This document shows, piece by piece, positions 10,378-25,936 of a stretch of DNA of 64,000 nucleotides. Position numbers and translations under genes: made by a program. This stretch comes from Tenericutes bacterium MO-XQ (GTDB lineage Bacteria > Bacillota_I > Bacilli_A > Acholeplasmatales > Acholeplasmataceae), in contig CP017948.1 in NCBI GenBank assembly GCA_002838185.1, positions 1,550,001 through 1,614,000 of the forward strand, in the 5' to 3' direction. The first letter of the stretch is position 1. Each line of letters starts with the position of its first letter. Below the pieces are notes generated by a model. It did not search any database and had not been told where the DNA came from. It saw only the letters and a program-made list of their open reading frames with translations.

Positions 10378-11358
10378 TTATTTTAGTACATCAATAAGTT
10401 CTGCTTTTTTAAGGGTTGAATAACCAGTAATGCCACGGTCTTTAGCTAAGGCACGAAGTTCAGCAACTGTCATTGATTCTAAGTCTTCTTGTGTTAAATC
10501 GTTATCTTCAACATCATCTTCTTCGACTTCTTCTTCGTCTTCTTCAACTTCTTTTACTTTAGGTTGAGGTTTTGGTTGAGGTTTAGCTTCACGTCTTGGT
10601 TTAGCTTCTTTTTGATCATTGTTATAATCTCTTCTTGAAGCTTCTTGAACTGTTTCTTCTTCGAATTTTTCAACAGCTCCACCTTGTGCTTCGATAACTG
10701 CATTTCCCATAACCCATGTAATTAACTTAACTGCACGAATTGCATCATCGTTTGCAGGGATAATGTAATCTACATCATCTGGATCACAGTTTGTATCAAC
10801 AATACCGAATACTTTGATACCTAATTTACGTGCTTCTAAAATTGCATTTCTTTCTTTTCTTGGATCAATAATGAAGATTGCTTCTGGAACTTTCTTCATA
10901 TCTTTGATACCGCCTAAGAATTTTTCTAACTTAGCACGTTCATTTTTAAGTTGTAAAACTTCTTTTTTAGGTAATTTTTCAAATACACCGTCTTCTTCCA
11001 TCTTATAAAGGTCGTGTAATCTCTTAATACGACGACGGATGGTTTTAAAGTTAGTAAGTGTTCCACCTAACCATCTTTGATCAACATAGAATTGACCAGT
11101 GCGAATTGCTTCTTCTTTTACTGATTCTTGAGCTTGTTTTTTTGTACCAATAAATAGTACTTTACCACCGTCAGCAACGATGTCGTATAACGCTTTATAC
11201 GCAATCTCAATCTCTTCAGCTGTTCTCTTTAAGTCAATGATATAAATACCATTTCTTGACGTAAAGATGTATGGTGCCATTTTAGGATTCCAGCGACGTG
11301 TCGCATGTCCAAAGTGTACGCCTGACTCTAATAATTGTTTCATTGAAACTACTGCCAT
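10378..11358 (-). CDS. rpsB: Ribosomal protein S2 with acidic linker and C-terminal SAP-like domain
   Basis: The first about 225 residues are a normal S2 ([30 protein letters not shown]). The protein then continues for about 100 residues: a charged, Lys/Pro/Gln- and Glu/Asp-rich linker, and a last 40-residue segment ([20 protein letters not shown], then [18 protein letters not shown]) that resembles SAP or Rho-N helical modules, which bind nucleic acid. I start at the internal ATG (MAVVSMKQ), 10 bases after SD GGAGG; the ATG three codons upstream has no usable spacing. A normal S2 is about 230-260 residues, so the tail is the odd feature. Confidence 0.95.
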
Positions 11359-15473: not shown

Positions 15474-16124
15474 TTATTTTAAATGCCAATCAATTGGCTT
15501 TATACCTTGTTCTTCTAAAAATTGATTCGTTTTTGAAAATGGCTTTGATCCAAAAAATCCTCTAGATGCTGACAGTGGTGATGGATGTGCTGATGTAATC
15601 ACTTTATGTTTTGTTTGGTCAATATACTTCATAAAGCTTTTTGCATGATTTCCCCATAGAATAAAAACAACAGGATCTTTTTTTTCATTGACTTTTTTAA
15701 CAACTTCTAAAGTAAAAATTTCCCATCCTTTTTTTTGATGCGATAAAGGTTCGTGAATCCTAACTGTCAAACATGTGTTAAGTAGTAAAACACCTTGTTT
15801 TGCCCAATGAGTTAAGTTACCTGTTTTAGGATAAGTAACATTCAAATCAAAAACTAGTTCTTTATAAATGTTTTTTAAGCTTGGTGGAAAGTCGTTATTT
15901 TCCACACTAAAAGCCAACCCATGAGCTTGATTTAAGTTATGATATGGATCTTGTCCGATAATCACAACTTTTACATGTTCATAAGGTGTTAATTTAAAAC
16001 AAGATAACCTTTTATCTTTAGGTGGTAGGACTACATGATTCATATCTTCTTGTTTTACAAACGAAACTAAGTCTTTAAAATATGGTTTTTCTAATTCACT
16101 TTGAATTAAATCATCCCAAGTCAT
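15474..16124 (-). CDS. ung: Uracil-DNA glycosylase, family 1
   Basis: Removes uracil from DNA to start base excision repair. The water-activating motif GQDPYH, the NTCLTV(R)...SH region and HPSPLSASRGFFG are present. 216 residues from the ATG at 16124 (MTWDDLIQ). I chose this start because SD AAGGTGA sits 5 bases upstream and homologues begin here; a frame extends 9 codons further but without SD. It overlaps the signal-peptidase gene by 14 bases, so ung is the last gene of that transcript. Confidence 0.95.
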   Translation of the reverse strand: MTWDDLIQSELEKPYFKDLVSFVKQEDMNHVVLPPKDKRLSCFKLTPYEHVKVVIIGQDPYHNLNQAHGLAFSVENNDFPPSLKNIYKELVFDLNVTYPKTGNLTHWAKQGVLLLNTCLTVRIHEPLSHQKKGWEIFTLEVVKKVNEKKDPVVFILWGNHAKSFMKYIDQTKHKVITSAHPSPLSASRGFFGSKPFSKTNQFLEEQGIKPIDWHLK

Positions 16125-16716
16125 TATGTTCACCTTCATTTTTTGGTTCATCTTTTTTCTTCACTAGCTTAACGATAACAACGATGATAGTTATGTTAAC
16201 GATTAGTAGTCCAACCAGTACTGGATTTCTTAATCCAGAAACAATCGTTCCAATGATAGGAACTCTAAATACATATTCACCAATCACTTGATCGTAAGTG
16301 AGTTCAGTGATATTTCCATTTTCATCATAAATTGTATCTATACTATTATTATTATCACCTTGAGTGATATAAGCTCCAGTTTCATCATCAATTTCAATTA
16401 ATCTATGGACAATTCTTATTTTAATCCATACTTCTTGTCCTTGACTGTTTTGCCCTCTTGCATAATTATAAAAGGAAATGATATCATTTTCTTCAATATC
16501 TTCTTCATCTACATCTTTTAACATGATGATGTCACCTGGTTCAATGGTTGGAACCATAGATTCAGTTGCTCTTGATATTGTTGTGAGTTGAAAACCAAAG
16601 ACATCAATGACTTTTTCTGGTAAGAATAGACTAACAGAGACATATGCAAGTAAAAATAAAGTTATTAAATAAAATAAAACTGTTTTAATGGTTTGGGTTG
16701 TTTTTTTATTTTTCAT
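16111..16716 (-). CDS. SipW-like (ER-type) signal peptidase I, catalytic residues intact
   Basis: Membrane signal peptidase of family S26, ER/archaeal/SipW branch. Residues: N-terminal helix 11-32; catalytic Ser53 in RATESMVPTIEPGD; His104 in IRIVHRLIEID instead of the Lys of ordinary SPase I; Gly-Asp in TQGDNNNSID (120-127); C-terminal helix 164-186. 201 residues. In Bacillus, SipW processes TasA-type proteins. Here three proteins with SipW-cognate-like N termini are encoded just upstream, so it is the likely processing enzyme (inference). SD AAAGGA precedes ATG; the start overlaps the upstream paralogue by 11 bases. Confidence 0.85.
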   Translation of the reverse strand: MKNKKTTQTIKTVLFYLITLFLLAYVSVSLFLPEKVIDVFGFQLTTISRATESMVPTIEPGDIIMLKDVDEEDIEENDIISFYNYARGQNSQGQEVWIKIRIVHRLIEIDDETGAYITQGDNNNSIDTIYDENGNITELTYDQVIGEYVFRVPIIGTIVSGLRNPVLVGLLIVNITIIVVIVKLVKKKDEPKNEGEHNDLG

Positions 16717-17350
16717 TTTTTTGATCCTTTAATATTTTATCTTTATCTTTAAACATCACATAATGTAGAATATAAATAATTAATGCGTGTAAGATAATCA
16801 TTGTGATGTATCCTCTAGGTGTTGACGCAGTGTAATAAAATACACCAACTATATTCGCTTGATCTGTATATATCCCTTCAATCTCATCATAAGTATACCG
16901 ATTTCTAATGACATCATCAAAGGTTGCTTCTACTTCTTGGTCTGTTGTATCGTTATCTAAAACTTCAACTTCCCAGTAATAGCTATTACCATAAAGTCCA
17001 AAAACTAGAACGCGATCACCAGGACTTAAAGCTTCTTTATCTATTGTTTTTAGTCTAACAACTTCTCCAACTAAGTCTTCATCAATTTCTTGATCTTTGC
17101 TAATTGCAATCACATACCTATATCCGAAAACATCTTTTGTAAAATCTTTGGATATCATCGGTAAAGCCATAAACACTAAATGAAGCACTGCTAGGATAAC
17201 AATGCTTCCGAATATTATTTTTTTTAGTTTTTTGGGATTTATATGTTTTTTTTGATTTTCAACAACAATTGTTTGAGATTCATGATTTAAATATAATAAT
17301 AAATCTTCAGTTGATAATAATTCATTCAAGATTCCACATCCTAAATGCAC
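16706..17350 (-). CDS. Signal-peptidase-like membrane protein, catalytic residues lost
   Basis: 214 residues with one helix at about 45-66 and another near 180-198, and an external domain between them laid out like SPase I (LSPGDRVLVFGLYGN resembles the post-catalytic GD strand). I find no Ser-Met nucleophile motif and no His or GDNN motif, so it is probably not a peptidase. It sits between two related genes and overlaps both, which suggests a stable trio. Start is uncertain: the GTG at 17350 overlaps the previous stop; a TTG seven codons later has a better SD (AGGATG). It has an N-terminal cytoplasmic extension of about 40 residues. Confidence 0.6.
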   Translation of the reverse strand: MHLGCGILNELLSTEDLLLYLNHESQTIVVENQKKHINPKKLKKIIFGSIVILAVLHLVFMALPMISKDFTKDVFGYRYVIAISKDQEIDEDLVGEVVRLKTIDKEALSPGDRVLVFGLYGNSYYWEVEVLDNDTTDQEVEATFDDVIRNRYTYDEIEGIYTDQANIVGVFYYTASTPRGYITMIILHALIIYILHYVMFKDKDKILKDQKNEK

Positions 17351-17916
17351 TAACCTTCATTGCTTACCTCTTTTTTGTCTTCATCTTTTTGTCCATGTTT
17401 CACAATGATGACTATGCCTGTTATAATTAATCCGTTTATGACAATAACACCAATACCAAATGGACTTTTGATGAACTCAATAATGCTTCCTAAAACAGGG
17501 ATTCTAAAAGCATAGCCGCCAACAATACGATCAGATAGAATAACTCCAAAGGGAACAGTTGCACCTTCAGCAATAACAGATACTCTGTAAGTATCAGTAT
17601 CAACTTCAGTGATACTATCAACATAATAAGTGACCATTTCTGTATCACCATCATAGTTAATATCTGCTTCAAAGGTGATTAAATCTCCTTCTTCTAATTT
17701 ACTTGCATTAACTTTGTTAATAAATACAAGGTCATTAGGTTTAATCGTTGGTTCCATCGTGTCATATTTTGCGATATATGTTTTTACTTGAAAAACATTT
17801 ATGGTTTGTTTAGGTATAAAAGCTTCCATCAAAATGAATAAAACTATTAATCCTAACAATACAAACATTGACCAAAAAGCTACATCTTTTATAATAGATT
17901 TTGTTTTATGATTCAT
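17350..17916 (-). CDS. Signal-peptidase-like membrane protein, Ser replaced by Thr
   Basis: 188 residues, same fold plan as the SipW-like protein: N-terminal helix 13-33, then KYDTMEPTIKPND at 50-62, and a C-terminal helix 152-174. The catalytic Ser53 of the paralogue is Thr53 here. The His and GDNN regions read VTYYVDSITEV and AEGATVPFG, so the dyad is gone. Likely an inactive paralogue with a structural, substrate-guiding or regulatory role (inference). First gene of the trio; a TATAAT at 17961-17956 (minus strand) is its likely -10 box. Confidence 0.65.
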   Translation of the reverse strand: MNHKTKSIIKDVAFWSMFVLLGLIVLFILMEAFIPKQTINVFQVKTYIAKYDTMEPTIKPNDLVFINKVNASKLEEGDLITFEADINYDGDTEMVTYYVDSITEVDTDTYRVSVIAEGATVPFGVILSDRIVGGYAFRIPVLGSIIEFIKSPFGIGVIVINGLIITGIVIIVKHGQKDEDKKEVSNEG

Positions 17917-17955
17917 ATATGACCCATCCCTATATTCATAGTAATTATTGATGTC

Positions 17956-17961
17956 ATTATA
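17956..17961 (-). promoter_or_regulatory. -10 box for the signal-peptidase trio
   Basis: Minus strand TATAAT about 40 bases upstream of the first gene and just after the terminator of the secreted-protein operon. No good -35 at 16-18 bases, so the promoter call is tentative. It would make the peptidases a separate transcript from the riboswitch-controlled genes. Confidence 0.45.
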
Positions 17962-17988
17962 TCATATTTTTTAAAGTTTTTATGATAA

Positions 17989-18019
17989 AGCCAGCATTTT
18001 TTGTGTTCATGCTGGCTTT
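17989..18019 (-). terminator. Terminator after the CBM-repeat gene
   Basis: Ten-base-pair stem AAGCCAGCAT / ATGCTGGCTT. The T tract is strong on the plus strand and weak on the minus strand, so minus-strand termination here may be leaky and could let transcription continue into the peptidase trio. Confidence 0.6.
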
Positions 18020-18024
18020 TTTTA

Positions 18025-19326
18025 TTAATTTTCGTATAAACTCCATGAACTTGGGGTTATATCCGGCGCTTCGTTAAGTGTTTGCTGTGAAGCTTGATAA
18101 ACTGCATCATTATAGAATACCACATCGCCTGATTGATATACATTATAGTTGTACCAATCATACCCAGTTAACCTATTCCAAGCATTTTGAATTGTTCCTG
18201 GAGCACCTTGATTTGCATTTGTTTCATTGACAACGACATATACTTCGCTATTATAAACTACGTATTCACCAAGAGTATATGTATTTAATGCATTATAGTA
18301 AATGGTTGCCATACCATTCCAACTATTTTGAGTTGTTCCTGGAATATCAGATGAATTAGCACTATTAGCTAGTTCATAAACATTACCTTGATACATCACT
18401 AAATCACCATTTGCATAAGTGTTATATTGTTGCCATTGTTGAGTATTTATGGCTTGCCATACACCTTTAGATGCTGCAGAGCCTGGAACAATATTTCTCT
18501 TTCCACCTGTTATTTTTTGTAATGCATCATAGAATATACCATTATACAATGTGTATTCAGTATTGTTAGGCACTGAACCATTGAATGTTGGTACAGTTAG
18601 TACTGTCCAAGCACCATTGGTTCCTGGTGTTGATCCTGTTGCCCAACCACCATTATTTGTAATATAATATGATCCATTGTATAAAACAATGTCTCCATTA
18701 GCATATACAAAGTTTGGTGAATAAGTTAAATCACCTTTGACTTGCCAGTCATTTTGCGATCCTGGTTCTGATGTTGTGTAATAGCCCTTATAAACCCAAA
18801 TTGTACCATCATAGTAAACGATATCGTTTAACTGTGAAGGTTGTCCAGTTACCCAACTTAGAGTATCAGTGTTTTGGTTTTCCCAAGGTCCATTGATACC
18901 TGTTGTTTCTGGATTTTGATTTGTGTTTTGCCATTTAGCCACATAAATATTTTCATTATATAAAATAACATCACCTGTATAATAAGAGATTTCTGGATAC
19001 CAGTTTAAATCATTATATACAGTCCAGTTATTTTGAATGGATGGCTCATTATCTAATGTGTATGAACCATTATATTCCCAAATTTGTCCATTAAACCAAA
19101 TTATATCTCCAGTTGTATATGCTGTTTGTGAGTCATAGTAAGAGATACCATCAGGTGAGTATGGACCAAATGTCCAAGTACCTACATTAACATTAGATGA
19201 TGAACTATCTTGAGCATTAGATATTGAGCTTGCCCAAAAAGTAAATGTGTCATTTGTAGTTAGTGACAACATGAAAAGCATTACAAGTAGTAATGTTGAT
19301 ATAATAGATTTATGACATTTTTTCAT
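18025..19326 (-). CDS. Secreted protein with eight CBM5/12-like repeats and a SipW-type N terminus
   Basis: 433 residues. N-terminal hydrophobic segment (8-24) followed by TFTFWASSISNAQDSSSSNV, which resembles SipW-cognate signal regions. The rest is eight tandem repeats of about 44-47 residues (start near 60, 107, 155, 199, 246, 297, 341, 388). The consensus is Y..GD.V.YNG..Y.......P....W, like chitin- and cellulose-binding modules of family 5/12 (ChtBD3). No catalytic domain is visible. Likely a surface polysaccharide-binding adhesin or matrix protein (inference). Excellent SD AAGGAGGTGAT. Last gene of the c-di-GMP-controlled operon. Confidence 0.7.
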   Translation of the reverse strand: MKKCHKSIISTLLLVMLFMLSLTTNDTFTFWASSISNAQDSSSSNVNVGTWTFGPYSPDGISYYDSQTAYTTGDIIWFNGQIWEYNGSYTLDNEPSIQNNWTVYNDLNWYPEISYYTGDVILYNENIYVAKWQNTNQNPETTGINGPWENQNTDTLSWVTGQPSQLNDIVYYDGTIWVYKGYYTTSEPGSQNDWQVKGDLTYSPNFVYANGDIVLYNGSYYITNNGGWATGSTPGTNGAWTVLTVPTFNGSVPNNTEYTLYNGIFYDALQKITGGKRNIVPGSAASKGVWQAINTQQWQQYNTYANGDLVMYQGNVYELANSANSSDIPGTTQNSWNGMATIYYNALNTYTLGEYVVYNSEVYVVVNETNANQGAPGTIQNAWNRLTGYDWYNYNVYQSGDVVFYNDAVYQASQQTLNEAPDITPSSWSLYEN

Positions 19327-19356
19327 GGTATCACCTCCTTGGTTTTAGGTATAAAA

Positions 19357-19375
19357 GCGACTCAAAAAGAGCCGC
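19357..19375 (-). terminator. Terminator-like hairpin inside the secreted-protein operon
   Basis: Minus strand GCGGCTC-TTTTT-GAGTCGC followed by TTTTAT, between the 177-residue secreted protein and the CBM-repeat gene. With no promoter visible after it, it probably sets a higher level for the upstream genes. Confidence 0.6.
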
Positions 19376-19410
19376 ATCTTAAATTAAACTATATTATCTC
19401 GTTCAATTAA

Positions 19411-19944
19411 TTATGGAGTAACAGTAATTGTTACATCAAAAGTAATAGGTTGACCTGCAACTGCATTATAAGTAGCTTGATCTGCTGGTTCTGTTAAAGT
19501 AACTGTTACAGTAACTGTAGCTGTTGCACCATTTAACTCAACTTCAGTAGCTCCACCAACAAGAGTGTTAACTAAACCTGCATTAGTTGTTGAACCATTA
19601 ATTTGGATATTATCTACAACAACACCAATACTTCCTAAGTCACCATCAAATGAATCATTGCTTACTGTGTCGTTCCAATCAACAACAAAACTAAATACTA
19701 CAACTTCAACTGCAGTACCTTCAACACTATCATCTGCTCTACCTGCTGGTACTAATACACCTGTATCTTGTGACGCACCTAATGTTACTTCAGTAGTAAC
19801 AGCTTCACCAGTACCAATTGTAACTGTATTTGATTCAACAGCATCATCACCTGATAATGATCCTGCCCAAAATGCAAATGTAAATCCACTAACTGCAACT
19901 GCTAAAATAACTAATAAACCAATAACTAATTTTCTTTGTTTCAT
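19411..19944 (-). CDS. Small secreted SipW-cognate (TasA/CalY-like) protein
   Basis: 177 residues. Signal segment LVIGLLVILAVAVSGFTFAF followed by WAGSLSGDDAVESNTVTIGT, matching the pattern of SipW-dependent secreted proteins (hydrophobic helix, aromatic pair, a short Ser/Asp/Asn-rich stretch, then a Gly-containing strand). The mature part is Thr/Val-rich beta sequence ending ITFDVTITVTP with no charged tail, and few Lys or Arg. Such composition suits a beta-fibre subunit. SD AAAGGAG. Middle gene of the riboswitch-controlled operon. Homology to TasA is by signal region and composition only. Confidence 0.68.
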   Translation of the reverse strand: MKQRKLVIGLLVILAVAVSGFTFAFWAGSLSGDDAVESNTVTIGTGEAVTTEVTLGASQDTGVLVPAGRADDSVEGTAVEVVVFSFVVDWNDTVSNDSFDGDLGSIGVVVDNIQINGSTTNAGLVNTLVGGATEVELNGATATVTVTVTLTEPADQATYNAVAGQPITFDVTITVTP

Positions 19945-19991
19945 AATAAATTTCTCCTTTAATTTTAAAATTATTTTTTAATTTTTATTTT

Positions 19992-20567
19992 TTATTCACT
20001 AACTTCTTCTTTCGGTTCTACACTAAAACTTAACGTGAAACTTAAATCCTGACCCTTTATGGCTTCAAACGCAGCAACCGAATCTTCCACATTTGCATCC
20101 TCAGGATCATCTACTTCGCTTTCATCAAGAGGTTCAATAAGTTTTACCACTACAACGACTTCGACTGCTGAATTAAATAATTCATTAATATGCAAGTCTT
20201 GAGTGCCGTTAATCGTAATTTCAACTAAATGAGCGTAATCGCTAGAACCACCAATCAATATACTAGAAGCTTCCACAATCAAATTCACACTTTTTACTAA
20301 TTCTTTATCAACTGATATTGAATAAGTAAAACTTGCTTCTTCATATTGACCGATGAAGAATGCTTTTCCTTCAGGCACTAGCCGTCCAGTAAATTCATCT
20401 CCGACTTCAACAATTTGAAGATTTGCTTGTTCGCCTCCAAACTCAATGATGACATTGGAGTTTGTATTGACATCATTCCAATAAGCGACCGCGGCAGTTG
20501 ATGTAAATGCTAATGCGATGACTAATAGTATGATGATCAAAATCTGAACATGTCTTCCTCTTAGCAC
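19992..20567 (-). CDS. Secreted SipW-cognate (TasA/CalY-like) protein, first gene after the c-di-GMP riboswitch
   Basis: 191 residues. N-terminal helix (8-30) followed by AVAYWNDVNTNSNVIIEFGG, again the SipW-substrate pattern. Beta-rich mature part with the strand-like ...EVVVVVKLIEPLDES, and LSFTLSFSVEPKEE at the end. It resembles the 177-residue neighbour in its last 60 residues (V.V.L.EP......AF.A..GQ...F...), so the two are probably paralogues. GTG start with SD GGAGG 8 bases upstream. Likely exported and anchored or assembled outside the membrane. Confidence 0.68.
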   Translation of the reverse strand: MLRGRHVQILIIILLVIALAFTSTAAVAYWNDVNTNSNVIIEFGGEQANLQIVEVGDEFTGRLVPEGKAFFIGQYEEASFTYSISVDKELVKSVNLIVEASSILIGGSSDYAHLVEITINGTQDLHINELFNSAVEVVVVVKLIEPLDESEVDDPEDANVEDSVAAFEAIKGQDLSFTLSFSVEPKEEVSE

Positions 20568-20592
20568 ATAAACTACCTCCCGATTCTAGGCT

Positions 20593-20623
20593 ATTAAAAA
20601 AGCCAACGTTTGTGCCGTTGACT
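20593..20623 (-). terminator. Riboswitch-linked intrinsic terminator
   Basis: Minus strand AGTCAACG-GCACAAA-CGTTGGCT followed by TTTTTT. Eight-base-pair stem placed between the c-di-GMP aptamer and the first gene. Expected to be the ligand-controlled expression platform. Confidence 0.8.
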
Positions 20624-20684
20624 ATCTTTTCTAGATGTTAAATATAAAAGGACCTAGATAATCAGCACGTCATAACTATTTAAA

Positions 20685-20775
20685 GTTTAAATGACAACTG
20701 GCTACCATTTCAGGCCCTATAGCTTTGCGTCCTTAAGTTTCCCTAAGTTTGCCTTTTACATTGATTGTTTGAACT
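20685..20775 (-). promoter_or_regulatory. Cyclic-di-GMP-I (GEMM) riboswitch aptamer
   Basis: Minus strand contains the class-I hallmarks in the right order: GGCAAAC, a GNRA-type-capped stem (CTTAGGGAAACTTAAG), GGACGCAAAGC, a GGGCCT segment, and GGTAGCC. The flanks can pair imperfectly to form P1. Known role: binds the second messenger c-di-GMP and switches genes for motility, adhesion or matrix. Followed by a terminator at 20593-20623. No GGDEF or EAL gene occurs in this window. Confidence 0.9.
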
Positions 20776-20799
20776 ACGTTCGTAACGTAATTCCTTTTA

Positions 20800-20827
20800 A
20801 TTATATATTATTTTTTTAAAATGTCAA
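20800..20827 (-). promoter_or_regulatory. Promoter of the riboswitch-controlled operon
   Basis: Minus strand TTGACA (20827-20822), 16-base spacer, TATAAT (20805-20800). Both hexamers are perfect consensus, so control must come mostly after initiation, by the riboswitch. Confidence 0.85.
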
Positions 20828-20888
20828 ACTAAAATGCATATTTTTGCTAAAAAAAATGATTTTTTTAACTTTTTTACACATTTTTTAC

Positions 20889-25726: not shown

Positions 25727-25729
25727 AAA

Positions 25730-25936
25730 GGTGCAATGATAAGGAACAAGTAATTTTATGGATGTGTTTATAGAGAGTTGGGATGCTGGAAACCAATAAC
25801 ACTAAATAAGATGAATGGACCCTTGGAGCAAACAAGTATCATCGGCTTTAACGATGTTGAGGGCTAGATTTTAATCTAGAACTAAGGTGGCACCGCGTTT
25901 ATAAAGACGTCCTTAGATGATAAGGACGTCTATTTT
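25730..25936 (+). promoter_or_regulatory. T-box riboswitch (tRNA-Trp) of trpS
   Basis: Has an AGTA/GAA specifier-loop pair with the codon TGG (25816-25818, in GATGAATGGACC), stem I pieces (AGAGAGTTGGGATGCTGG), the T-box AAGGTGGCACCGCG (25884-25897), and a ten-base-pair terminator GACGTCCTTA-GATGA-TAAGGACGTC (25906-25930) with T run. Uncharged tRNA-Trp binds both specifier and T-box and prevents termination, so trpS is induced by Trp starvation (family knowledge). Confidence 0.95.

Follow-up and report, generated by a model that had tools for sequence, protein, structure and literature searches.

The 64,000-nucleotide stretch of Tenericutes bacterium MO-XQ analysed here (contig CP017948.1, positions 1,550,001 to 1,614,000; called the window below) carries on its minus strand, between gap (glyceraldehyde-3-phosphate dehydrogenase, GAPDH) and ung, a series consisting of a promoter, a riboswitch aptamer, a terminator and six open reading frames (ORFs). 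With a probability of about 0.7, we read this series as a class I cyclic di-GMP (c-di-GMP) riboswitch that acts at the level of transcription termination and switches on an operon for secreted surface proteins of adhesive function in an acholeplasma lacking a wall. The window lies on a contig of 2.07 Mb, and the same arrangement of genes was found again in related genomes: in other genera too, gap is followed by the switch, the genes for exported proteins, the three S26 genes and ung. The contamination of the genome is reported as 6.92%, which qualifies single-copy statements on it.

In a covariance scan of the window, the aptamer matched RF01051 with 65.1 bits (gathering cut-off 35, E 1.7e-10), which confirms the class I aptamer that an earlier note had placed here in front of a SipW/TasA-like surface-protein system. 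The perfect-consensus promoter and the intrinsic terminator, both claimed by the same note, were likewise found, the latter at 20623-20601 with a U-run, and its coordinates were right; the regulatory element ends near 20596. The predicted ligand is c-di-GMP. In the GEMM-I class, a G at the position of Vc2 G20 favours c-di-GMP over cyclic GMP-AMP (cGAMP). Since specificity can shift through this position, a different cyclic dinucleotide, for example 3',3'-cGAMP, might be considered as the ligand, and an A does replace the G in strain zrk7 (L074, about 11024-11098, minus strand) and, within the genus of zrk7, in L086:1035-1109; these two aptamers may respond to cGAMP or to both ligands. The window aptamer, however, has a G at this ligand-contact position (AAAAG-GC in the alignment), RF01051 scored higher on it than the variant families of the same clan, and the search for signalling enzymes, which covered GGDEF and EAL, gave 20 and 5 matches in the genome, respectively, all of which makes a different ligand very improbable for the window. 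Neither the aptamer score nor the GGDEF count contradicted the claim of the earlier note.

Downstream of the aptamer, a switching strand (S) can pair with either of two alternatives, the 3' strand of the aptamer (A, 20706-20690) or the 5' arm of the terminator (T, 20626-20612). Across 16 type A leaders, the mean pairing energies were -13.9 kcal/mol for A:S, -12.3 kcal/mol for S:T and -6.0 kcal/mol for A:T, and in each of the 13 leaders whose first gene could be recognised, the two former pairings overlap in S. In these 13 leaders, both A:S and S:T are stronger than dinucleotide shuffles, with a mean Z of -2.6 and -2.3, respectively. The letters of S and T vary by genus yet stay complementary, being GAUUAUC/GAUAGUC in the genus of the window and CUACGCUUGAC/GUCAACGUAG in another. 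In a swap test of the S:T pairing, the own partner gave -11.2 and a partner from another group -7.8, and only 1 of 5000 permutations was as strong. The differences in S:T between genera are compensatory changes. This covariation, together with the strength of A:S and S:T, argues for a predicted ON logic. Without c-di-GMP, S would be bound to the aptamer 3' strand, the terminator at 20623-20596 would fold and transcription would halt. When c-di-GMP is present, the aptamer would close and release S, which would then pair with the terminator 5' arm and allow RNA polymerase to continue into ORF1-ORF3.

Several points concerning the direction of the switch weigh against this reading. Class I switches of Clostridioides difficile are mostly OFF switches (PMC6200980). 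In equilibrium folding, locking the aptamer moves the terminator probability of the window merely from 0.97 to 0.87, and only seven of the 16 leaders fall clearly on locking (six to below 0.15, and L070 from 0.97 to 0.63), the others being nearly static. Since the equilibrium shift is small, a kinetic effect must be assumed for the ON reading. An OFF switch, in which c-di-GMP promotes termination and the surface proteins are made when c-di-GMP is low, would agree with the C. difficile precedent, with the value of 0.87 that remains in the window after locking and with the finding that aptamer and terminator of Cd1 are able to coexist (PMC9262584). However, OFF logic of the Cd1 type needs A:T as its antiterminator, and this pairing is weak across the 16 leaders compared with A:S and S:T, the latter of which covaries between genera. 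Moreover, aptamer locking lifts the terminator probability by no more than 0.01 in all 16 leaders, and the equilibrium calculations have the same sign as ON logic. The OFF arrangement of Cd1 type is thus disfavoured, and an OFF switch in general appears quite unlikely. As the homologous aptamers Cd1 and pilM work in either direction (PMC9262584), kinship of the aptamer is compatible with both; the ON direction is the one suggested by the pairings.

The N termini of ORF1, ORF2 and ORF3 consist of a hydrophobic stretch followed by AYW, AFW and TFW, respectively, as in SipW substrates, and the SipW-type motif occurs in none of the 66 other window ORFs of at least 100 aa. The SipW-cognate-like N termini claimed for three exported proteins are therefore present as a motif in all three, but a profile search of the window proteins with TIGR04088 (SipW-dependent signal peptide, cut-off 19 bits) gave only a weak match to ORF1 (14.2 bits) and none to ORF2 and ORF3. 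ORF3 matches CBM5/12 (PF02839) with 62.2 bits (cut-off 26.2) in five stretches and would contribute these carbohydrate-binding modules (CBMs) for the binding of polysaccharide, while ORF1 and ORF2 gave no CBM match. ORF2 and ORF3 are separated by a hairpin and U-run in all eight related loci that keep ORF3, with a sequence that differs between loci, and in L070, which is without ORF3, a hairpin likewise stands 3' of ORF2. Because this partial terminator comes after ORF2, ORF2 is probably the main subunit, and its output is predicted to exceed that of ORF3. The product of the operon is likely an adhesive surface layer that contains CBM5/12 repeats and is induced by c-di-GMP.

The protein side of the reading also meets adverse results. 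The exported proteins do not reach the TIGR04088 cut-off. Homology to TasA by sequence is unsupported, since no window protein matches PF12389 (TasA/camelysin), the best match in the genome reaches 11.7 bits against a cut-off of 22.5, and no PDB entry matches by sequence; a TasA identity of ORF1 or ORF2 thus found no support, and neither did the TasA-like label of the earlier note. The AlphaFold model of ORF2 is too poor (predicted local distance difference test, pLDDT, of 42.5), and Foldseek was uninformative. Finally, the formation of a polymer, matrix or fibre may be proposed by analogy only. The several CBM5/12 repeats of ORF3, and the CBM repeats that reappear in second-operon proteins of relatives, would also suit cells that make no matrix and produce free or membrane-bound carbohydrate-binding proteins for chitin or cellulose feeding, switched ON upon settling on particles. 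Yet no catalytic glycosidase family was matched among the operon proteins scanned, the signal common to the switch targets is the SipW-type one while many of them, as ORF1 and ORF2, are without a CBM match, and the conserved attenuator 3' of ORF2 is what would be expected for a major subunit. A feeding function is for these reasons considered unlikely, and an adhesive surface layer remains the preferred reading.

The catalytic residues of the three S26-family proteins were read from an alignment of 64 S26 proteins of the loci. Of the three SipW-like peptidases claimed earlier, all are indeed S26-type ORFs, but only ORF6 retains Ser, His and Asp. Thr and Tyr occupy the Ser and His positions of ORF4 throughout the window's genus (five species) and also in strain zrk7; for ORF5, both Ser and His are missing at the aligned positions in every related type A locus. 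TIGR02228 matches ORF6 with 57.3 bits (cut-off 51.85) and ORF4 below the cut-off with 35.1 bits, and leaves ORF5 unmatched; a profile from which the group of ORF5 had been left out still assigned ORF5 to S26 (E 3e-12 among 454 proteins). The Bacillus SipW equivalog NF046067 was scored at 40.6 and 37.9 bits, against a cut-off of 190. The AlphaFold model of ORF5 is moderate (67.8), with Foldseek uninformative, and neither this model nor that of ORF2 is used for any claim. A separate housekeeping signal peptidase I is encoded in the genome (97.7 bits), and because of this the SipW-type peptidase is regarded as dedicated. ORF6 probably cleaves the SipW-type signal peptides of ORF1-3. On the model of the inactive SipA in streptococcal pilus assembly, ORF4 and ORF5 may bind substrates or pass them on.

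SipA of the streptococcal pilus operons is a signal-peptidase-like protein without catalytic residues that is encoded together with surface proteins, like ORF4 and ORF5, and in Streptococcus pyogenes it is inactive yet essential for pilus polymerisation (PMC4049620). The SipA-like combination of S26 homology and catalytic loss beside surface-protein genes was found for ORF5 in all related loci. In contrast to the window, SipA serves a sortase-based pilus and belongs to the Ser-Lys family, whereas here no sortase is present and the S26 proteins are of the SipW-like Ser-His type.

Most related loci carry TGATATAAT, an extended -10 element, before ORF4, with L070 as a locus from which it is absent, and the last ORF of the peptidase block overlaps ung. 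The block is predicted to be at least partly independent of the switch. Since a separate promoter-like element is conserved ahead of the peptidase genes, the main targets of the switch are probably the exported proteins, and a switch that controls the entire block, as the earlier note had it, is not upheld.

Profile searches of the genome found no penicillin-binding protein transpeptidase (PF00905) and no sortase. UGA is a normal stop, with TGA ending 12 of 55 long ORFs. The wall-less cell type had been proposed from gene content and code; it is the gene content, namely the missing PF00905, that supports it, and not the genetic code.

Features of the switch-controlled locus in the window, in order of transcription
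Feature	Position	Strand	Basis or remark
Sigma-70 type promoter, TTGACA-16-TATAAT, 12/12 consensus	20827-20800	minus	perfect consensus
c-di-GMP-I (GEMM-I) riboswitch aptamer	20763-20690	minus	Rfam covariance match
Switching strand S (UAUGACGUGCUGAUUAUCUA)	20674-20655	minus	alternative pairings computed; swap test for covariation
Intrinsic terminator (AGUCAACG...CGUUGGCU-UUUUUU), part of the expression platform	20626-20596	minus	hairpin and U-run
Ribosome-binding site GGGAGG of the first gene	20581-20576	minus	by eye, position by script
ORF1, 191 aa, GTG start, exported, SipW-type N terminus (STAAVAYWND)	20567-19992	minus	conserved in the family
ORF2, 177 aa, short exported protein (FTFAFWAGS)	19944-19411	minus	predicted beta-rich
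Hairpin and U-run between ORF2 and ORF3, partial terminator (attenuator)	19375-19353	minus	
ORF3, 433 aa, exported (FTFWASS)	19326-18025	minus	several CBM5/12 carbohydrate-binding repeats
Extended -10 promoter-like site (TGATATAATG) before the S26 genes	17964-17955	minus	conserved
ORF4, 188 aa, S26-family membrane protein	17916-17350	minus	Ser to Thr, His to Tyr; probably inactive
ORF5, 214 aa, S26-family membrane protein	17350-16706	minus	neither Ser nor His
ORF6, 201 aa, SipW-type signal peptidase I	16716-16111	minus	intact (Ser-His-Asp)

Two other leader elements were seen in the window. A tetrahydrofolate (THF) riboswitch (73.8 bits, 15434-15343, minus strand) precedes a gene resembling energy-coupling factor (ECF) transporters (15301-14762) downstream of ung, and a T-box leader (113.7 bits, 25727-25917, plus strand) is followed by a gene that resembles tryptophanyl-tRNA synthetase.

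The genome contains six RF01051 matches, five of them above the cut-off. Besides the window aptamer, these comprise a triple tandem (G000:C1 791674-791989) and one aptamer 8.5 kb downstream of it, and both the tandem and the downstream aptamer precede the operon L015, which encodes SipW-type exported proteins (FAWIS, FAWFT, YAWF and YAYF), two intact SipW-like peptidases, a giant surface protein, an AAA_5 ATPase and a DUF2357 protein. The AAA_5 and DUF2357 genes form a McrB/McrC-like pair (L015:10617-14033), which in the type B loci that were read through is enclosed by the operon of exported proteins. Just upstream, the large SipW-type operon occurs a second time, here lacking aptamers (L091:5223-16576, G000:C1 773222-784575), and sits directly after two GGDEF-EAL genes. 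The sixth match (L016:6924-7012, G000:C1 1864923-1865011) was rejected as sub-threshold with 32.4 bits; it precedes a cluster of carboxynorspermidine-type dehydrogenase and decarboxylase, aspartate kinase and semialdehyde dehydrogenase genes and is possibly a diverged or altered-ligand switch. Two GGDEF genes, at G000:C1 1634043 and 1732973, are identical in score and length, which suggests a recent duplication or an assembly repeat.

In the family, the aptamer is present in 46 of 88 genomes, all 46 of which have GGDEF matches, compared with 59 of the 88 overall; in the order-level sample, it is present in 86 of 150 genomes. In one genus with small genomes (g11), no member has the aptamer and GGDEF is nearly absent. 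A SipW-type protein is encoded within the next three genes after 52 of 58 aptamer clusters of one to four aptamers each, against none of the 66 other window ORFs; the motif behind this count was set after viewing examples, and many loci are kin. Of ten loci that the order-level search was the first to list, 8 have a SipW-type protein after the aptamer. One entry (L058 at 7849), which carries a coordinate of another contig, was excluded from the aptamer counts. As part of the same best explanation, we consider it probable that the window locus belongs, as one branch, to a regulon under c-di-GMP whose SipW-type surface systems are common to the order. This spread goes beyond what the earlier note had described. 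The nearest named loci are those of Acholeplasmataceae metagenome-assembled genomes and Mycoplasmatota strain zrk7.

Tandem arrays of two to four aptamers stand before SipW-type operons throughout the family. At L055:926-1377, four c-di-GMP-I aptamers lie in tandem with one operon behind, while the longest natural array that we found described is a triple (PMC4759541). In two relatives (L066 and L067), the last genes of the second operon encode a protein with CBM repeats and a PAS-GGDEF protein, and this position of the PAS-GGDEF gene suggests feedback. In another genus (L089:1270-1345), the aptamer is kept before ung while the exported-protein and S26 genes are gone, so that it is either a relic or has a new target. 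SipW-type proteins with GLUG repeats occur singly behind an aptamer in L056 and L088, and L056:5408-9340 shows an S-layer-protein-like SbsC_C match.

Comparison with known systems showed partial likeness in each case. In tapA-sipW-tasA of Bacillus subtilis and in sipW-tasA and calY of Bacillus cereus, which form a biofilm fibre system (PMC13082335, PMC10269814), a dedicated SipW-type peptidase likewise accompanies small, beta-rich exported proteins in which an aromatic residue follows closely on the expected cleavage site. However, the Bacillus systems are under SinR control without a c-di-GMP switch, belong to walled cells and have no S26 pseudo-enzymes described, and ORF1 and ORF2 show no detectable homology to Bacillus TasA. 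The sipW-bsaABCRSD locus of Clostridium perfringens produces a SipW-dependent extracellular polymer, and a terminator after its main subunit gene bsaA lowers downstream expression (PMC7395162), comparable to the hairpin after ORF2; it differs in its control by a two-component system and temperature, in the presence of a wall and in the single SipW described. The adhesin and flagella switches of C. difficile and the cap switch of Bacillus thuringiensis share the aptamer class and the transcriptional control of surface proteins (PMC6200980, PMC4933901), but have other targets and, in C. difficile, mostly act OFF, whereas the four-strand logic here predicts ON and the targets are of SipW type. 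The triple-tandem Bc3-5 of B. thuringiensis likewise consists of a series of three class I aptamers (PMC4759541), like the tandem of the present genome, but it precedes csp genes instead of SipW-type operons.

Each part of the system is of a known kind, as GEMM-I switches before adhesins, SipW-type secretion and inactive signal peptidases have all been described. In the literature searched, with subscription literature and preprints outside the scope, nothing was found that joins a c-di-GMP riboswitch with Acholeplasma, although Rfam may list some of the aptamers, and no published description of a system of this composition was found. By title and abstract, the papers joining SipW, riboswitch and c-di-GMP concern Bacillus, Anoxybacillus or C. 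perfringens. In 2008, Galperin counted 14 GGDEF/EAL proteins in Acholeplasma laidlawii (PMC2408644), and a paper of 2024 found it strange that c-di-GMP use is known from A. laidlawii but from no other mollicute (PMC11535214); no described c-di-GMP target was found for A. laidlawii or other mollicutes in the same literature. On a wider scale, and with odds that we place somewhat short of even, the wall-less Acholeplasmatales would possess a sortase-independent adhesive surface layer of SipW-type exported proteins, assembled with a conserved signal-peptidase paralogue that is catalytically dead (joined by the AAA_5/DUF2357 pair where the operon is larger) and controlled by ON riboswitches that are single or in tandems of up to four, as the main c-di-GMP output in Mollicutes.

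The present analysis supplies candidate c-di-GMP targets for dozens of species and thereby a first concrete, testable answer to the role of c-di-GMP in wall-less cells. It suggests that cells lacking a wall have a regulated system for matrix formation or adhesion, and it draws attention to an inactive signal peptidase conserved next to an intact one.

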